Shown here one piece after another: positions 559 through 60,283 of a DNA stretch of 64,000 bases (positions within the stretch are counted from its first letter, which is position 1; every line of letters starts with the position of its first letter). The translations under genes and the position numbers were made by a program. The DNA is from Pararhodobacter oceanensis (GTDB lineage Bacteria; Pseudomonadota; Alphaproteobacteria; Rhodobacterales; Rhodobacteraceae). Location of the stretch: contig NZ_QDKM01000006.1 of assembly GCF_003076755.1 (NCBI RefSeq), positions 124,001-188,000 on the forward strand, in the 5' to 3' direction. The notes below the pieces were generated by a model. It had not been told where the DNA came from, ran no database searches, and saw only the letters and a program-made list of their open reading frames with translations.

Positions 559-583
559 GGCGGGCAGCGGTTGAACTGTCTCG

Positions 584-601
584 CCCGTGGGCACCCACGG
601 G
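584..601. repeat. Hairpin flanking family A copy A1
   Basis: CCCGTGGG-CA-CCCACGGG is a perfect 8-bp stem with a CA loop lying against the left end of repeat copy A1. The equivalent position beside A5 (34358-34375) has the same length and loop but a different stem sequence that still pairs. Confidence 0.7.
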
Positions 602-729
602 CCGCGCCCGACCCTCCCCCCGGGAGGGCGCATTGGCGATGACGTGGATGGCTCGAACGACACCTCTTCTTTCGGACGCGCGCGTTGTGGCGAGGACAGC
701 TGCGCCCGCCCAGGGTCGGTCGCGGCCCT
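599..729 (+). repeat. Family A element, copy A1 (131 bp)
   Basis: The element opens with GGGCCGCGCCCGACCCT and closes with the near reverse complement AGGGTCGGTCGCGGCCCT. The interior carries the shared track GGGAGGGCGCATTGGCGATG and GCGCGTTGTGGCGAG. It lies in the gap between gpsA and the aminotransferase gene and encodes nothing recognisable. Confidence 0.8.
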
Positions 730-763
730 AAGTGCTTTGCGTGAGCGGAGTAAGGGAAGGGTA

Positions 764-5585: not shown

Positions 5586-5622
5586 TTCCTCCCTTTCTTT
5601 CCGTCACGCTCGTGGGCACCAC

Positions 5623-5753
5623 GGGCCGCGCCCGACCCTCCCCCCGGGAGGGCGCATTGGCGATGCCCTTCATCGCTCAAGCAACATCCATGCTTTCAAG
5701 TCCACCGCATTGTGGCAAGCGCAGTGCGCCCCCCCAGGCCCGGGCGTGGCCCT
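5623..5753 (+). repeat. Family A element, copy A2 (131 bp)
   Basis: Starts GGGCCGCGCCCGACCCT and ends GCCCGGGCGTGGCCCT, a decayed inverted repeat. Preceded by the hairpin CGTGGGCACCACG. It ends 11 bp before the convergent pncA stop codon. Confidence 0.8.
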
Positions 5754-5764
5754 TCGCGCTTGGC

Positions 5765-6370
5765 TCAGGCCAGCACCACCCCCGCCGCGCGCATATCTGA
5801 CAGCGCTTTATCCAGCGATCCGTCGAGATCAATCGCGCGGCAGGCCTCTTGCAGCACCGTCACTTTGAACCCCAGCCGCGCCGCGTCAATCGCCGAATAG
5901 GCGACGCAGAAATCCGTCGCGATGCCGGTGAGCACCAGATCGGTCACCCCGCGCGAGCGCAGATAGCCCTCCAATCCGGTCGGCGTGACATGGTCATTCT
6001 CGAAAAACGCCGAATAGCTATCGATCTGCGGCCGGAACCCCTTGCGGATGATCATATCGGCGGGATCGGTCTCGAGCGCGGGATGAAACGCCGCGCCGTC
6101 GCTGCCCTGCACACAGTGGCGCGGCCAAAGCACCTGCGGACCATAGGGCATTTCAGTCAGCGAAAACGGCTCGCCGACCGAATGGTTGTCGGCAAAGGAG
6201 CTGTGATCCGCCGGGTGCCAGTCCTGGGTGAACACACGCACCGCGTAATCGCCGAGCATTGCGTTGATCAAGGGCACCACGGCATCGCCATCCGCCACCG
6301 CCAGCGCGCCACCGGGGCAGAAGTCGTGTTGAACGTCGATGACCAAGAGCGCGGTTGTGTCGGGGTGCAT
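5765..6370 (-). CDS. pncA: Nicotinamidase / isochorismatase-fold hydrolase
   Basis: Deamidates nicotinamide to nicotinate for NAD salvage (Preiss-Handler pathway). The 201-residue length is typical of PncA. The triad is in place: Asp12 in LLVIDVQHDF, Lys110 in IIRKGF and the nucleophile Cys155 in ATDFCVAYSA. The metal-binding DxHxxxH is D50-W-H52-P-A-D-H56. GIATDFCVAYSAIDA is diagnostic for nicotinamidases rather than generic isochorismatases. Start ATG 6370 has GGAGG upstream. It is transcribed alone, with repeat A2 just beyond its stop and a divergent lysR gene upstream. Confidence 0.95.
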   Translation of the reverse strand: MHPDTTALLVIDVQHDFCPGGALAVADGDAVVPLINAMLGDYAVRVFTQDWHPADHSSFADNHSVGEPFSLTEMPYGPQVLWPRHCVQGSDGAAFHPALETDPADMIIRKGFRPQIDSYSAFFENDHVTPTGLEGYLRSRGVTDLVLTGIATDFCVAYSAIDAARLGFKVTVLQEACRAIDLDGSLDKALSDMRAAGVVLA

Positions 6371-10786: not shown

Positions 10787-10810
10787 CATTTCGCTATTCG
10801 CAAGACACAA

Positions 10811-10941
10811 AGGGTCGCGCCCGACCCTGGGCGGGCGCACTCCCCCTCTGATCCACGCGCGCGCTCAAAAGCATCCATGTCATGCGAGTGGCGAATGACC
10901 TCGCCAATGCGCCCTCCCGTGGGGAGGGTCGGGCGCGGCCC
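10811..10941 (-). repeat. Family A element, copy A3 (131 bp, reverse orientation)
   Basis: Bounded by AGGGTCGCGCCCGACCCT and AGGGTCGGGCGCGGCCC. The interior shows the shared CGCCAATGCGCCCTCCC track in reverse. Confidence 0.8.
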
Positions 10942-11158
10942 GGGCTGGGGCCCGTGCCAACCGGGTGGACTGTAACGCAACTTGAAGAGTCCGCCGCCGA
11001 TCATTCCCCCCGCAAATCCGCCGCCCCTCTGATGACAGGTTTTGCCTGCGCCGCGACCCCATGCTATGCGCCGCCAGAGACTTGCACCGCAGGCCTCTGG
11101 CGGGCAACGTCATGTGTGACGGCCCGCGCATCGGGGCGCAGATAATTCGGAGAACACT
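10942..11158. other. 5' region of the Cds1-like gene
   Basis: A 217-base leader between repeat A3 and the next start. It presumably contains the promoter of the PLP enzyme gene. No clear promoter, riboswitch or small gene recognised. The ribosome-binding site GGAGA is at 11150. Confidence 0.35.
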
Positions 11159-12265: not shown

Positions 12266-12426
12266 GAGCGCATCGCCAGACCGCAGGATGGCGAGCCTTA
12301 CGGCTGAACGACGCGCTTTATGGTGCGTTCTACATCCATCATCTGAACGACGCACCCAGCCCCACCAAATCGCCAGCCCGGGGGGGCGGTCTGGCGATGC
12401 GCGGCGGCTTCGCCTTGATTCCGCGC
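12266..12426 (+). repeat. Family B element, copy B1 (about 160 bp)
   Basis: Left end GCATCGCCAGACCGC and right end GCGGTCTGGCGATGC are exact inverted repeats. The core has GAACGACGCGCTTTATGGTG followed by CGTTCTACATCCATCATC. The right end extends to GCCTTGATTCCGCGC. Confidence 0.75.
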
Positions 12427-12494
12427 AGGGGCAGTAGACCATCAGTGGGCACTTCATTTCGTAGAACCTTACGGCATCTGAGCAAGCACAACAG

Positions 12495-24691: not shown

Positions 24692-24830
24692 GCGCCGGTG
24701 GTGTGAGGGATTTGGGAGCGGCCTGCCGGTGGGTGGGCCGTTTTTTTGTGGGTTGGGGGGTGGCGTGCTCCGTTGCGCTGGAGGACCGGCGCGGAGGCAA
24801 GGTGAAGCGCTGGGTTGTGCGTGGTGCCCC

Positions 24831-24990
24831 GCGCGGAATCAAGGCGAAGCCGCCGCGCATCGCCAGACCGCCCCGAGGGCTGGCGATCTGGTGGGGCTGG
24901 GTGCGTTGTTCGAATGACGTGCGGACTTGGCTGGCATAAAGCGCATCGTTCAGCTGTTGGATCGCCATCCCGCGGTCTGGCGCTGCGCTT
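24831..24990 (-). repeat. Family B element, copy B2 (reverse)
   Basis: Runs from GCGCGGAATCAAGGCGAAGC, through GCATCGCCAGACCGCC, to CCCGCGGTCTGGCGCTGC. The core ATAAAGCGCATCGTTCA is shared with the other copies. Confidence 0.75.
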
Positions 24991-25052
24991 TGTTGTATGC
25001 TCGGTGAGCGCGGTTCGCGGGCTTTTAACAGGTTTGCCGGTAGTCTTAACTT

Positions 25053-25212
25053 GCGCGGAATCAAGGCGAAGCCGCCGCGCATCGCCAGACCGCCCACGGG
25101 GCTGGCGATCTGATGGGGCTGGGTGCTTCGCTTCCGGTGGTGGATGTGGAGCGCGGCATAAAGCGCTCTGTTCAGAGTGTTGGACGCCATCCCGCGGTCT
25201 GGCGAAGCGCGG
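25053..25212 (-). repeat. Family B element, copy B3 (reverse)
   Basis: Same left end GCGCGGAATCAAGGCGAAGC and right end CCCGCGGTCTGGCGAAGCGC; same length as B2. Confidence 0.75.
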
Positions 25213-25290
25213 CTTGCGTCGCGAGCAGGGCGTGTATTGAAGCGTGGCTTCCTGAGTTTTCTTTTTTGCGAACGGCAGTTCTACGCACCC

Positions 25291-25450
25291 GCGCGGAATC
25301 AAGGCGTAAGCCGCCGCGCATTGCCAGACCGCCCCGAGGGCTGGCGATCTGGTGGGGTTGGGTGCTTCGTTCATATGCTGGATGTCGAACGCTCCATAAA
25401 GCGCATCATTCGGCCTTTAGGCTCGCCGTCCCGCGGTCTGGCGCTGCGCT
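25291..25450 (-). repeat. Family B element, copy B4 (reverse)
   Basis: Left end GCGCGGAATCAAGGCGTAAG, right end CCCGCGGTCTGGCGCTGCGC; same length as B2 and B3. Confidence 0.75.
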
Positions 25451-25524
25451 ATGTTGCGCGTCGTGCCCTGCGCGGAATCGAGGCGTAGGGCTTTTTCCTG
25501 CTCTCGAATACTACAGCAGTCACC

Positions 25525-25690
25525 ACGCAAGCCGTGCATTGCCAGACCGCGGGGTGGCGACCCACCGGTTGAACGAAGCGCTTTATGGCGCGTTCTACAT
25601 CCATCATTTGAACGGCGCGCATACAGCAGCCAAATCGCCAGCCCGGGGGGCGGTCTGGCGATGCGCGGCGGCTAACGCCTTGATTCCGCG
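25525..25690 (+). repeat. Family B element, copy B5 (forward)
   Basis: Left end CGCAAGCCGTGCATTGCCAG, right end GCGGTCTGGCGATGC running to GCCTTGATTCCGCGC. A partial left end (GCGCGGAATCGAGGCG) lies just upstream at 25470, and a right-end-like fragment at 25716-25738. Confidence 0.7.
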
Positions 25691-25752
25691 CCGGGGCGCT
25701 GAGTGTGTAGGCGGCATCCCGCGGTCTGGCGATGCGCTCGAGTGCGCTCCCC

Positions 25753-29879: not shown

Positions 29880-29967
29880 CGCGCACTAGGGCGCGCGGGC
29901 GGGGCTGGTTGGAGTGGTGCGCGTCAGGCGAAGCCTTGGGGTCAACCACGTTCAGAGTGATGCGCGA

Positions 29968-30098
29968 AGGGGCGCGCCCGACACTGGGTGGGCGCGTGGG
30001 GCGATTGAACAATGTACTACGCCTCAAAGCATTGATGTTGGTCGGGCGGTGAATGACATCGCCATGCGCCCTCCCGGGGGGAGGGTCGGGCGCGGCCC
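29968..30098 (-). repeat. Family A element, copy A4 (131 bp, reverse)
   Basis: Bounded by AGGGGCGCGCCCGACACT and AGGGTCGGGCGCGGCCC, with the flanking hairpin CCCGTGGGGGCCACGGG outside the right end. Confidence 0.8.
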
Positions 30099-30122
30099 GT
30101 GGGGGCCACGGGCGAAACAGAT

Positions 30123-30183
30123 GGGGGCGTTGCCCCTCTTGGCCTGTGGCCAATTCACCCCAGGATATTTTTGGACAGATGAC
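30123..30183 (+). repeat. Family C cassette, copy C7, at the 3' end of hrpB
   Basis: Hairpins GGGGC-GTT-GCCCC and GGCC-TGT-GGCC, then AATTCACCCCAGGATATT and the TTTTGGACAGATGA box, ending six bases before the minus-strand hrpB stop. Confidence 0.7.
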
Positions 30184-30188
30184 GGGCG

Positions 30189-34253: not shown

Positions 34254-34372
34254 CGCGTTTGGTGGTGGGGCGCGGAGCGATCGTCAGGTGCGGGGGCTTG
34301 GACCGACGGGGTCTGAGCGTGGTGTGTGTATTGCTGCGGAGCGGTGCAACCCTCACGCCCGGCGGCACCGCC

Positions 34373-34503
34373 GGGCCGCGCCCGACCCTCCCCGCGGGAG
34401 GGCGCATTGGTGATGCTGTGAGCGGCTCGGACGGCGTGGATGCTTTGGAGCGCGCCGCGTTGTGGTGAGGGCGGGGCGCCCACCCAGGGTCGGGCGCGGC
34501 CCT
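34373..34503 (+). repeat. Family A element, copy A5 (131 bp)
   Basis: GGGCCGCGCCCGACCCT at the left and the exact reverse complement AGGGTCGGGCGCGGCCC at the right. The flanking hairpin at 34358-34375, CCCGGCGG-CA-CCGCCGGG, shows compensatory changes relative to A1. Confidence 0.85.
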
Positions 34504-34596
34504 TCGGGGTTTGGGGGGCTTCGTGAGACGGATGGCTCCATCCCATGGCAGTGTTTTGATGTGCTGCGGTTCAGCCGTCTAGCTCGTGGGCACCAC

Positions 34597-34728
34597 GGGC
34601 CGCGCCCGACCCTCCCCTCGGGAGGGCGCATTGGTGATGGCGGGTGCGGCGCGAGCGACATTTCAGCTTTTTAGCGCGCCGCGTTGTGGTGAGGGATGGG
34701 GCGCCCACCCAAGGTCGGGCGCGGCCCT
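34597..34728 (+). repeat. Family A element, copy A6 (132 bp)
   Basis: Same ends and orientation as A5, 93 bases downstream of it. The interior has AGCGCGCCGCGTTGTGGTGA, shared with A5. Confidence 0.85.
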
Positions 34729-34761
34729 TTGCGCTTTGCTTGCGGGCGTTGTCCGAAAGGA

Positions 34762-34823
34762 GGGGGCTGTCTGCCCCCTCTTGCCTGCGGCAATTCACCC
34801 CCGAGGATATTTTTGGACAGATG
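34762..34823 (+). repeat. Family C cassette, copy C8, at the 3' end of folC
   Basis: GGGGGC-TGTCT-GCCCCC, TTGCCTGCGGCAA, then the GAGGATATTTTTGGACAGAT box, ending 13 bases before the minus-strand folC stop. Almost identical to C1. Together with A5 and A6 it fills the rpmB-folC gap. Confidence 0.75.
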
Positions 34824-41474: not shown

Positions 41475-41491
41475 GGGCGGCTGGAGCGCGG

Positions 41492-41623
41492 AGGGACGCG
41501 CCCGATCCTGGGTGGGCGGCCTCGCGCTTGCCACGAGGCGGAGTGCTCAAAAGCAGTGATGTTGGATGCGCGGTGAATGACATCGCCAGTGCGCCCTCCC
41601 GGGGGGAGGGGCGGGCGCGGCCC
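41492..41623 (-). repeat. Family A element, copy A7 (132 bp, reverse)
   Basis: Bounded by AGGGACGCGCCCGATCCT and GGGGCGGGCGCGGCCC, with the hairpin CCCGTGAGTGCCCACGGG outside the right end and the shared tail CGGTTGAACTGTAG beyond it. Confidence 0.8.
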
Positions 41624-41718
41624 GTGAGTGCCCACGGGCCTAGGCGGTTGAACTGTAGCACGCCAGAGCAGATCCTTGCTTGCAACCTATCTATAGTATG
41701 CCTCACCACTAGATACTA

Positions 41719-41849
41719 AGGGGTGCGCCCGACACTGGGTGGGCGCCTCTCGCTTGCCACGAGGCGCTGCGCTTGAAAGCGGAGATGTAGGTCGGGCGGT
41801 GAAGGGCATCGCCAATGCGCCCTCCCGGGGGGAGGGTCGGGCGCGGCCC
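41719..41849 (-). repeat. Family A element, copy A8 (131 bp, reverse)
   Basis: Bounded by AGGGGTGCGCCCGACACT and AGGGTCGGGCGCGGCCC, hairpin CCCGTGGGGGCCCACGGG, and the same GGTTGAACTGTAG tail as A7. A7 and A8 are a head-to-tail pair separated by 95 bases. Confidence 0.8.
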
Positions 41850-42049
41850 GTGGGGGCCCACGGGCCTAGGAGGTTGAACTGTAGGTCAGACAAACGCGGA
41901 GGCTCATGCAGGAGGATGGATGCTGTGCACGATGTTTTGAGCACCCGCTGCCTTGGGCGGAATGGTTAATTTCTTGCCTGACACTCGCCACGCGCCTACC
42001 CTGTCGGGATTGTTTTTAGTGGTTTCCTTCAGGAATTGGAGTGTGTTTG
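41850..42049. other. 5' region of the VHL-beta-like secreted protein gene
   Basis: About 200 bases holding the A8 flanking hairpin and then lower-GC DNA from about 41960 that should contain the promoter. No confident -10/-35 pair recognised. Confidence 0.35.
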
Positions 42050-58527: not shown

Positions 58528-58700
58528 GGGTCGGCGCAAGCCCTGATTGGGGATTCGGGCGGTGGAAGCGGTGGTTGTGATCGCGGTGCGGCGGGGATTC
58601 GCGCGGGGGTGGCGTTTGGGGGGGTGATCCCCCAGCGTCGGGTGCGGTGCTTCGGGCTTTGCGCGTCTCCGCTTCACCCCTCACGCCCGGCGGCACCGCC

Positions 58701-58831
58701 GGGCCGCGCCCGACCCTCCCCACGGGAGGGCGCCTTGGCGATGTCCTGCGCCGCTCGAGCGGCATTCGTGCTTTGGAGCGCGCCGCGTTGTGGCAAGGGC
58801 AGGGCGCCCACCCAGGGTCAGGCGCGGCCCT
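58701..58831 (+). repeat. Family A element, copy A9 (131 bp)
   Basis: GGGCCGCGCCCGACCCT at the left, AGGGTCAGGCGCGGCCCT at the right. The flanking stem CCCGGCGG-CA-CCGCCGGG is identical to that of A5. Confidence 0.85.
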
Positions 58832-58877
58832 ACGTGCTTCAGGGCATCAGTTCGTCTGTCTGGCACGTGGGAACCAC

Positions 58878-59173
58878 GGGCCGCACCCGACCCTCCCCTT
58901 GGACGCAAGCCGCGTAGCGCCAGACCGCGGGGTGGCGATCCAGCGACGAAACGAAGCGCTTTATGGTGCGTTCCACATCCATCATTGAAACGGCGCGCCT
59001 GCGGTAACAGATCGCCAGCCCGATGGGGCGGTCTGGCGATGCGTGGCGGCTTCGCCTTGAATCCACGCAAGGCGCAATGGTGATGAAGGGCGTGGCTCGA
59101 GCGGCATTCGTGCTTTGGAGCGCGCCGCGTTGTGGCAAGGGCAGGGCGCCCACCCAGGATCAGGCGCGGCCCT
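58878..59173 (+). repeat. Family A element, copy A10, split by a family B insertion
   Basis: The left part (58878-58902) is GGGCCGCACCCGACCCT and the following bases; the right part (59071-59173) resumes at GGCGCAATGGTGATG and ends AGGATCAGGCGCGGCCCT. The two parts together make 128 bases, close to the normal 131. Between them lies a complete family B unit. Confidence 0.8.
58903..59070 (+). repeat. Family B element, copy B6, nested in A10
   Basis: Left ACGCAAGCCGCGTAGCGCCA, core GAAGCGCTTTATGGTGCGTTC-type, right GCGGTCTGGCGATGCGTGGC to GCCTTGAATCCACGCAA. ACGCAAG occurs at both edges and could be a duplicated target, although other copies carry it as part of their left end. Confidence 0.75.
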
Positions 59174-59269
59174 TTGGGCTTCGACGGCGGCTCTTAGAAA
59201 CGGCGGGTTTCAGGTGAAGGGTTTTCACTGATGCGCCTCGGTTCAACACCCACGCCCGGCGGCCCCGCC

Positions 59270-59400
59270 GGGCCGCGCCCGACCCTCCCCACGGGAGGGC
59301 GCATTGGCGAGGTCATTCATTGCTCGCGCCACATATATGCTTTGAAGCGTCGCGCATTGTTCGAAGGGTGGGGCGCCCACCCAGGGTCGGGCGCGGCCCT
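59270..59400 (+). repeat. Family A element, copy A11 (131 bp)
   Basis: GGGCCGCGCCCGACCCT and AGGGTCGGGCGCGGCCCT, an exact inverted repeat. The flanking stem is CCCGGCGG-CC-CCGCCGGG. It ends 23 bases before the convergent gene's stop. Confidence 0.85.
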
Positions 59401-59422
59401 TTGGGCATAGTGGTGCCGAGAT

Positions 59423-60283
59423 TCAGGCCGGTGGCGTCGGCGGGGGATCGGCGGCGGTGAGTTCGGCGCTGGTCAGCGCCTGCGTCAGGATCGGTGCGAG
59501 GCGCTGCGCCATCGCCGCCTGCCCCGCGGCATCGGCGATCAGGTCATTGCGGATTTCCAGCATCGCGTGGTTCAGCCGCATCGGGCGGGCGTGGATGCGG
59601 GTGGTATGGGCGACGCTGCTCTGCGCCGAATAGGGCTCATTCAGCCGCGTGACCAATCCGCTGCCCGCGCTGGCCTGCAGGATATGCCGGGCGATGCCTT
59701 CGTCGTCATCGAACAATATGCCGAATTCCACCTCGCGGGGGGTGCCGAAATAGACCGGCGTGAAGGAATGCACCGCGATCACCACCGGGCGGCGGCCCAG
59801 CAGCACGAGGCGGGCGATCTCGGCGGTGACCGTGGCCTGAAAAGGCAGATAGATCGCCTCGAGCCGCGCCATCCTATCGGCCATCGACAGATCACGGTTG
59901 CCCGGCACCTGATGGATTTCCGAAGTCACCGGCATCGCGCCGGGGTGATCCGGCGGGCGGTTGAGGTCATAGGCCAGCCGCGACAGCGGCGCGTGGATCA
60001 GCGCCGCGCCATCCATCACCGGCGCCAGCTGCGCGGCCAAAAGGCGCGAGAGGGAGAGCGCGCCGATGTCATAGGCGGCATGGGAGGCGCGGGTCTCGGC
60101 ATCAAGGCCAAGATCGCCGCCGAGTTCCGGCACATCCTCGGGCAGCGCATTCGAGGCATGTTCGCAGATCAGCACCAGCGCGGGCGTCGGCGCGCCGCGG
60201 CCCTTGCTGCCGTCGGGCTGCCAATATTCCACCGTTCCGGGATAGCGCGGCAGGGTGAGCGGGGCGGAGATCTGCTGGGTCAT
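59423..60283 (-). CDS. N-formylglutamate amidohydrolase-family protein
   Basis: A 286-residue metallohydrolase-fold protein of the N-formylglutamate amidohydrolase (HutG-like) family. ALVLICEHASNALPEDV (about 32-48) and the central SRLAYDLNRPPDHPGAMPVTSEIHQVPGNRDLS carry the family's conserved acid and His residues, and VVIAVHSFTPVYFG provides another His. Whether it acts on formylglutamate is not shown; there is no hut gene nearby. ATG 60283 (MTQQISAP) is preferred over an upstream GTG. The C-terminal tail is Pro-rich. Confidence 0.85.
   Translation of the reverse strand: MTQQISAPLTLPRYPGTVEYWQPDGSKGRGAPTPALVLICEHASNALPEDVPELGGDLGLDAETRASHAAYDIGALSLSRLLAAQLAPVMDGAALIHAPLSRLAYDLNRPPDHPGAMPVTSEIHQVPGNRDLSMADRMARLEAIYLPFQATVTAEIARLVLLGRRPVVIAVHSFTPVYFGTPREVEFGILFDDDEGIARHILQASAGSGLVTRLNEPYSAQSSVAHTTRIHARPMRLNHAMLEIRNDLIADAAGQAAMAQRLAPILTQALTSAELTAADPPPTPPA

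Follow-up and report, generated by a model that had tools for sequence, protein, structure and literature searches.

Large intergenic hairpin elements, with tandem and nested copies, in Pararhodobacter oceanensis and other Rhodobacteraceae

Introduction

ERIC/IRU sequences are imperfect palindromes of about 127 bp that lie between genes in both orientations, with a copy number that is very uneven between species; a TA duplication is associated with ERIC. REPs, as described in the sections of PMC3733652 drawn on here, are found mainly between convergent and unidirectional genes, near 3′ ends, and head-to-head dimers predominate among them. According to the same sections, GTAG REPs are possibly mobilized by RAYTs, whereas CGTC REPs prevail in Alphaproteobacteria, lie past gene ends and are without a known transposase (PMC3733652).

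The element analysed here was recognized in a window of 64 000 nucleotides from P. oceanensis (contig NZ_QDKM01000006.1, positions 124 001–188 000), in which a preliminary description had listed eleven copies of an intergenic repeat of 131–132 bp. A narrow literature search found no description of the element, and the repeat is not mentioned in the accessible part of PMC4809877. We consider it probable that these copies belong to a superfamily of non-autonomous intergenic hairpins, REP/BIME- or ERIC-like in kind, that spread and was then maintained for its structure. The evidence is given below together with the alternatives on which it bears.

Results

The repeat unit and its copies in the window

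The 17-mer that had been taken for the terminal repeat has 23 matches in the 64 kb window with at most three mismatches, against 1.93 expected and a maximum of six in 100 shuffles, and the repeat is present at all eleven places that had been listed. The ten unsplit copies can be aligned beyond the 131–132 nt first given. In an alignment of 75 copies from the same genome (76 were listed and one was omitted), the conserved unit begins about 20 nt upstream of the original start, with a small hairpin termed P1 (typically GGCCCGTGGGCACCACGG), and stops about 12 nt downstream of the original end (CCCTTTGCGCTTTG). Conservation past both ends gives a unit of about 165 nt, and with the extended ends the unsplit window matches span 158–166 nt (Table 1). 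No promoter-like conservation was found upstream of the copies past the P1 boundary.

The preliminary description was right about the inverted repeats and about a near-fixed length, but not about the ends or the size of the element. The '17 bp terminal inverted repeats' are the arms of a stem, P2, and so belong to a structure rather than to the termini; the exact 17-mer stands at both ends in only two of the ten unsplit copies (34373 and 59270). Using nhmmer on the 444 kb of the own genome fetched around hits, 151 element A copies were near full length and 149 of them differed from the model span by 3 nt or less, although the near-full-length filter by itself restricts large deviations. All eleven window copies are intergenic by our own gene caller, as had been proposed, with the copy at 5605–5767 overlapping the end of a neighbouring gene by 3 nt. 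The copy described as split (58878–59173) is indeed the repeat, and what splits it is an element of a second family, B, lying inside the loop of the 5′ hairpin of A.

Table 1. Elements of families A and B in the 64 kb window.
Feature	Coordinates	Strand	Evidence
Element A (P1 hairpin, P2/P4 long hairpin, 3′ tail)	580–744	+	nhmmer A1 profile, alignment
Element A, between an FtsK-like gene and a convergent nicotinamidase-like gene (names are best NCBIfam matches, the FtsK one below the curated cut-off)	5605–5767	+	Profile, alignment
Element A	10795–10959	−	Profile, alignment
Family B, stand-alone	12267–12430	+	Profile
Family B, in B cluster	24825–24988	−	Profile
Family B, in B cluster	25050–25218	−	Profile
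Family B, in B cluster	25289–25449	−	Profile
Family B, in B cluster	25526–25694	+	Profile
Element A, between a UbiH-type hydroxylase gene and convergent hrpB	29952–30116	−	Profile, NCBIfam names
Element A, first of tandem pair	34353–34514	+	Profile, alignment
Element A, second of tandem pair, start-to-start about 226	34579–34741	+	Profile, alignment
Element A, one of tandem pair	41485–41642	−	Profile, alignment
Element A, other of tandem pair	41703–41868	−	Profile, alignment
Element A, first of cluster beside carB (5′ side of carB)	58682–58844	+	Profile, alignment
Split element A, with nested family B in 5′ hairpin loop	58860–59184	+	Profile
Family B nested in split A	58904–59075	+	Profile
Element A, last of cluster	59251–59415	+	Profile, alignment; long hairpin is the minimum-energy fold

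Copy number and distribution

The genome and its relatives were searched, as the preliminary description had suggested. In the 444 kb of the own genome that was fetched around hits, nhmmer gave 182 profile matches, which correspond to 176 elements because five split copies were counted as two pieces and one copy was cut by a locus end; the fetched stretches L193 and L198–L201 had no A or B match. Across the whole genome the arm pattern gave 286 hits (138 forward and 148 reverse), compared with two for a reversed control (1 + 1).

Relatives were searched with R1, a covariance model of the element, which matched at least 100 times in the own genome, with all scored candidates matching. Among 17 congeners, 12 had between one and 18 R1 matches, some of them one place counted on both strands, and five had none. 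A sample of the family, run with stricter filters and 15 candidates scored per genome, gave matches in 123 of 198 genomes, the own genome included. In a sample of the class four of 289 genomes matched: the own one, two more from the family and, at the borderline (E 7e-4), one from a different family. At least 91 stretches of named genomes contain an exact 31-base core pattern, and the hosts among the matches listed are Rhodobacteraceae-type genera or bins, with a few assigned only to class or phylum. Plasmid hits occurred only in five Rhodobacterales genera, and the phage and plasmid comparisons returned no known family. The superfamily is found across one bacterial family, the Rhodobacteraceae in the broad sense.

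Fold and covariation

Each unit opens with P1 and continues with a long interrupted hairpin, P2/P4, in which a P2 of 15 bp and a P4 of about 9 bp are separated by a bulge of about 6 nt on one side and enclose a loop of about 70 nt; short forms have a loop of only a few nt instead. For the copy at 59251–59415 the long hairpin is the minimum-energy fold, whichever strand is taken (z −3.3 and −3.8). When 36 loci with R1 matches were scanned for inverted repeats, 27 had element-like arms, with the same geometry and often with very dissimilar sequences; some additional inverted repeats there do not belong to the element. The inner arm distance was 95–101 in long forms (with two at 110 and 115) and 29–33 in short forms.

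Among 67 copies the mean pairwise identity was 94.6% for the 5′ arm (a value inflated by the anchor pattern used for collecting copies), 83.2% for the 3′ arm and 56.5% for the loop. With the own copies alone RNAalifold saw no covariation, because the P2 arms hardly vary within the genome. Across 28 matches in genomes other than the own, from its genus and family, 94.2% of the P2/P4 cells were paired and 13 of 24 pairs had double-sided changes (65 cells, versus 14.0 in shuffles), in an alignment that contains one antisense shadow and, being fitted to the model, leans to structure. The covariation score was 0.289, versus at most 0.047 in slid registers, and pairing dropped to 40–51% when the register was slid by 1–3. 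Arm sequences differ between lineages while their pairing is kept.

P1 behaves similarly within the genome itself. It is paired in 91% of 145 own copies and 93% of 94 copies of relatives, versus 38% and 43%, respectively, when arms are swapped between copies and 22–25% for shuffled letters. In the own genome it is an 8 bp stem, with seven or more of the eight pairs present in 139 of 145 copies.

Stem mismatches showed no strand preference (G–T 9, A–C 16). A single-strand (RNA) signature in the mismatches was rejected on these counts; selection on the RNA of one strand is therefore unsupported, and the target of the constraint could be DNA, or else RNA made in both directions. The P2 mismatches of the own copies (73 A–C and seven G–T) could be due simply to the greater variability of the 3′ arm, and they were not taken as evidence. 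Correction of near-palindromes during replication is an established mechanism, and it could give double-sided changes without selection.

Position relative to genes and terminators

Gene positions were obtained with our own simple codon-usage gene caller, by which 99 of 103 clusters of copies could be classified. Convergent gaps hold 53 of these clusters, co-directional gaps 42 and divergent gaps four; the element-free gaps in the same loci are 16 convergent, 73 co-directional and 52 divergent. None of the clusters is contained in a predicted gene, given that overlaps of at most 60 nt were tolerated and that any predicted gene contained in a cluster had been discarded. Of the 39 co-directional clusters with a single orientation, 34 are nearer to the 3′ end of a gene, and 21 are sense and 18 antisense. 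Most copies lie a short way beyond the 3′ end of a gene, whatever their orientation, and often with a terminator in between. Four regions of annotated plasmids (two convergent, one inside a TRAP-transporter operon and one co-directional) agree with the placement in the own genome. Along the genome, orientation was unbiased (the same for neighbouring clusters in 45 cases and different in 40), as it was with respect to local GC skew (Fisher p 0.15).

A terminator-like hairpin or motif was found between gene end and element at 44 of 148 gene ends, compared with five for shuffled segments. Element-free gene ends had such a hairpin in 12 of 85 cases; these were scanned over 110 nt, a length different from that used for the element-facing ends. 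As 44 of the 148 ends already have a terminator-like hairpin, the element is no simple replacement for a terminator, and many copies may be hardly transcribed.

Two explanations that rest on position can be weighed here. Enrichment between convergent genes and GC-rich hairpins would suit bidirectional intrinsic terminators serving convergent gene pairs, but no T run is visible at either consensus end and the genes that face an element have terminator-like hairpins of their own, at the frequencies and with the differing scan lengths given above; we find this explanation hardly credible. It is highly improbable that the copies act as DNA-level architectural sites (cruciforms, or sites for gyrase or a nucleoid protein) at gene ends where supercoils accumulate. 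Such a site would be compatible with the convergent location, the lack of a strand preference among mismatches and the random orientation along the genome, but the strong swings in copy number, with five of 17 congeners lacking an R1 match, argue against a general chromosomal role, and no protein was identified.

A second, unrelated sequence is also conserved between genes at gene 3′ ends (window positions 30123–30187 and 34761–34812). It comprises a hairpin of the GGGGGC..GCCCCC type followed by CACCCCCGAGGATATTTTTGGACAGATGA, is terminator-like and has many close matches in congeners, including two (G009 and G017) that have no R1 match.

Family B and nested composites

Family B is a sister of element A, with different arms and the same architecture. 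Read in reverse, it has a small hairpin, a long arm, a bulge, a second stem, a loop with ATAAAGCGC and the returning arms; an A copy from Thioclava (L075) likewise contains ATAAAGCGC in its loop. In the B cluster of the window (24825–25694) the starts are 225–239 nt apart.

The composite of A with a nested B is present at six places in the genome, one of which is the window copy at 58860–59184. The inserts in the split copies found measure 173–222 nt and are all family B. Four nested B copies that were compared form two pairs, with values of 0.87 within each pair and 0.73–0.77 between pairs. When the six composites were compared with one another, their upstream flanks showed no relationship in any of 15 comparisons, and their downstream flanks showed none in 14 of 15. 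In the composites at C1:266125 and C1:574940 (L034 and L222) the nested B is 46–49 bases longer than in the others and contains the inverted repeat GGCGATTATTC..GAATAATCGCC; the extra bases are perhaps a third small insert.

Tandem arrays

Of 73 cases of neighbours no more than 400 nt apart, 65 share an orientation once pieces are merged; for more distant neighbours the count is 52 of 93. Start-to-start distances peak at 222–230 and 176–181. The 41 arrays contain 51 spacers, of which 30 are 55–72 nt long (mean 63), nine are 5–22 nt long and 12 fall elsewhere. In 30 of the 41 arrays, homology of spacers or flanks was undetectable. Between loci, 13 of 425 pairs of tandem spacers score 14 or more, versus none in five shuffles; the spacers at C1:266–268 kb, window 34515 and window 59185 are mutually similar. 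In the flank comparison, many of the top scores were due to abutting copies, a nested B or a terminator repeat, and these were not taken for shared spacers. The related spacers indicate that units moved together at least in part. A conserved ancestral dimer as the sole source of the 227 nt period was rejected: copies in positions 1 and 2 are inseparable by loop similarity (0.580, 0.597 and 0.585), even though spacers are shared between some loci.

At locus L032 (C1:164046–164670) the long hairpins of two adjacent copies have 98% identity, but their P1 stems differ and their spacers show no relationship. The pattern resembles gene conversion confined between the arms.

We rate as distinctly unlikely a mobilization of the superfamily by some machinery not yet described, one that would recognize folded DNA and insert each new copy at a defined distance from those already present. 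It would have put tandem units head-to-tail, about 227 or 179 nt from start to start and with mostly unrelated spacers, and would have inserted B into the 5′ hairpin loop of A in what appear to be two or more separate events.

Gain, loss and retention at orthologous sites

The preliminary description had proposed looking for empty orthologous sites, and these were found at three places in the window. At 29952 the element is absent from all four syntenic congeners among nine searched, and the orthologous gap is 144–200 nt in the congeners versus 354 nt here. The tandem pair at 34353 is absent from the one syntenic congener (G002). At 41485 no A, B or R1 match was found in any of four congener stretches between matching flanks, stretches that also span a gene that did not align. 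The absences at all three sites were confirmed by A, B and R1 profile searches, with the own site as positive control.

One site, between cysS and a citramalate synthase gene, carries the element in the same position and orientation in six genomes (two Marivita, two Roseovarius and two bins) of 91 loci listed. These six copies have near-invariant arms, a diverged loop and P1 stems that differ yet are paired. Two congener loci, L156 (with L253) and L168 (with L046), have two genes on one side of the element in common with element loci of the own genome, and may be shared element sites. The element-free orthologous stretches and the cysS–citramalate synthase site together indicate that the family has gained (or lost) copies and has also kept copies for a long time. 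Between copies at different loci, identity does not go beyond about 0.90 (maxima of 0.898 and 0.882), so there is no sign of current movement.

A hairpin acting only in cis as RNA, at 3′ ends or between cistrons, and inherited vertically without mobility would explain the cysS–citramalate synthase site in six genomes, the position inside the TRAP-transporter operon in Leisingera and the strong folding. It would explain neither the element-free stretches in congeners nor the contrast between at least 100 R1 matches here and 0–18 in the 17 congeners, and nested and tandem units common to unrelated loci, together with the random orientation to co-directional genes (21 sense and 18 antisense of 39), also speak against it. 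We hold it to be quite improbable.

A purely selfish origin, with MITE-like relics of an old spread decaying behind terminators and their arms kept similar within the genome by recombination between copies, is unlikely. P2/P4 covaries between lineages and P1 within the genome, and one orthologous site has been kept in six genomes with diverged loops, neither of which suits relics in decay. Avoidance of genes and of divergent (promoter) gaps, the many copies beyond terminator-like hairpins and the L032 pair, which differs in spacers and P1 as gene conversion would leave it, are what such relics would show.

Signals of transposition

No target-site duplication was detected, as matching flanks showed no excess over permutations in 138 copies or in the 49 isolated ones. 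No Y1 (RAYT-type, PF01797) transposase was found in the own genome (G000), whereas the control was positive in five of 14 named genomes. A classical MITE moved by a DDE transposase was rejected on the absence of a duplication signal and because the inverted repeats are structural stems and not termini. A RAYT/Y1 transposase as the present mobilizer was likewise rejected, since the genome has no PF01797 match; an earlier transposase could since have been lost.

The preliminary description had offered a non-autonomous mobile element and a maintained structured repeat as alternatives. Spread is borne out in part, by the large lineage-specific copy number, the element-free orthologous stretches and the occurrence of multi-copy and nested units at unrelated loci. 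Maintenance as a structured repeat is likewise borne out in part, by the covarying paired arms, the near-fixed length and the site common to six genomes.

Discussion

Spread followed by structural maintenance is the reading that we favour. Spread would need a trans-acting enzyme that recognizes the folded ends, presumably other than a Y1/RAYT protein of the present genome. Copies that are retained may act as hairpin barriers past gene ends, and where they lie inside operons, as between cysS and citramalate synthase, the barrier might affect RNA stability or processing. Most of the remaining copies would be tolerated in the zone behind terminators.

The element adds a class of large intergenic hairpins that is spread over a major group of marine bacteria. 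Its lineage-specific, still-paired arms provide natural material on which to ask if repeats of this kind are selfish, useful or a combination of the two, and the cysS–citramalate synthase site makes that question directly testable.

Among described systems, the element resembles the RNA families of Rfam in being structured and covarying. In the window no Rfam family reached its gathering score, and at a relaxed threshold the sole match in 58650–59450 was Xoo2, inside the nested B, at 21 bits versus 45. With ERIC/IRU it has in common an imperfect palindrome, an intergenic location in both orientations and a very uneven copy number. It differs from ERIC/IRU in sequence, in host family, in having P1 and a bulged P2/P4, in its two length classes and in its tandem arrays, and no counterpart of the TA duplication was seen in its copies.

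Like the REP/BIME/REPIN (GTAG) group, the element is a high-copy intergenic palindrome past gene ends. Unlike a GTAG REP of 20–40 nt, it has a unit of about 165 nt; GTAG was found in none of 145 windows before P1, and GTAG or CTAC in none of 138 after the tail. Its genome lacks a Y1_Tnp match, unlike the GTAG REP/RAYT system, and its neighbours are arranged head-to-tail (65 of 73 in the same orientation) rather than as head-to-head dimers.

CGTC REPs have a CGTC (or TGTC/CCTC) tag beside a stem of 8–9 bp, and P1 of the own genome, an 8 bp stem, resembles one such unit. CGTC, TGTC or CCTC precedes P1 in 80 of 145 own copies versus 68 of 435 control windows, and strict CGTC in 35 of 145 versus 30 of 435; in the copies of relatives the tag shows no excess (16 of 92 versus 50 of 276). 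The outer pairs of P1 are C–G where CGTC REPs have A/T in the first two stem positions, and the P1 loop is 3 nt in most own copies rather than 4–5 nt. There is no CCA tail, the tail being the P2 arm, and a much larger hairpin comes next. Locus L062 (from about 4391 onwards) has a short-form copy and, no more than about 200 nt beyond it, hairpins (CCGTCATTCCCGCG... and GGACCCCGGATCAAGTCCGGGGTGACGG) that look like CGTC REPs. For neither the element nor CGTC REPs is a dedicated transposase known, and the roughly 176 copies in a genome without a Y1 transposase match the open puzzle stated for CGTC REPs in the sections of PMC3733652 used here.
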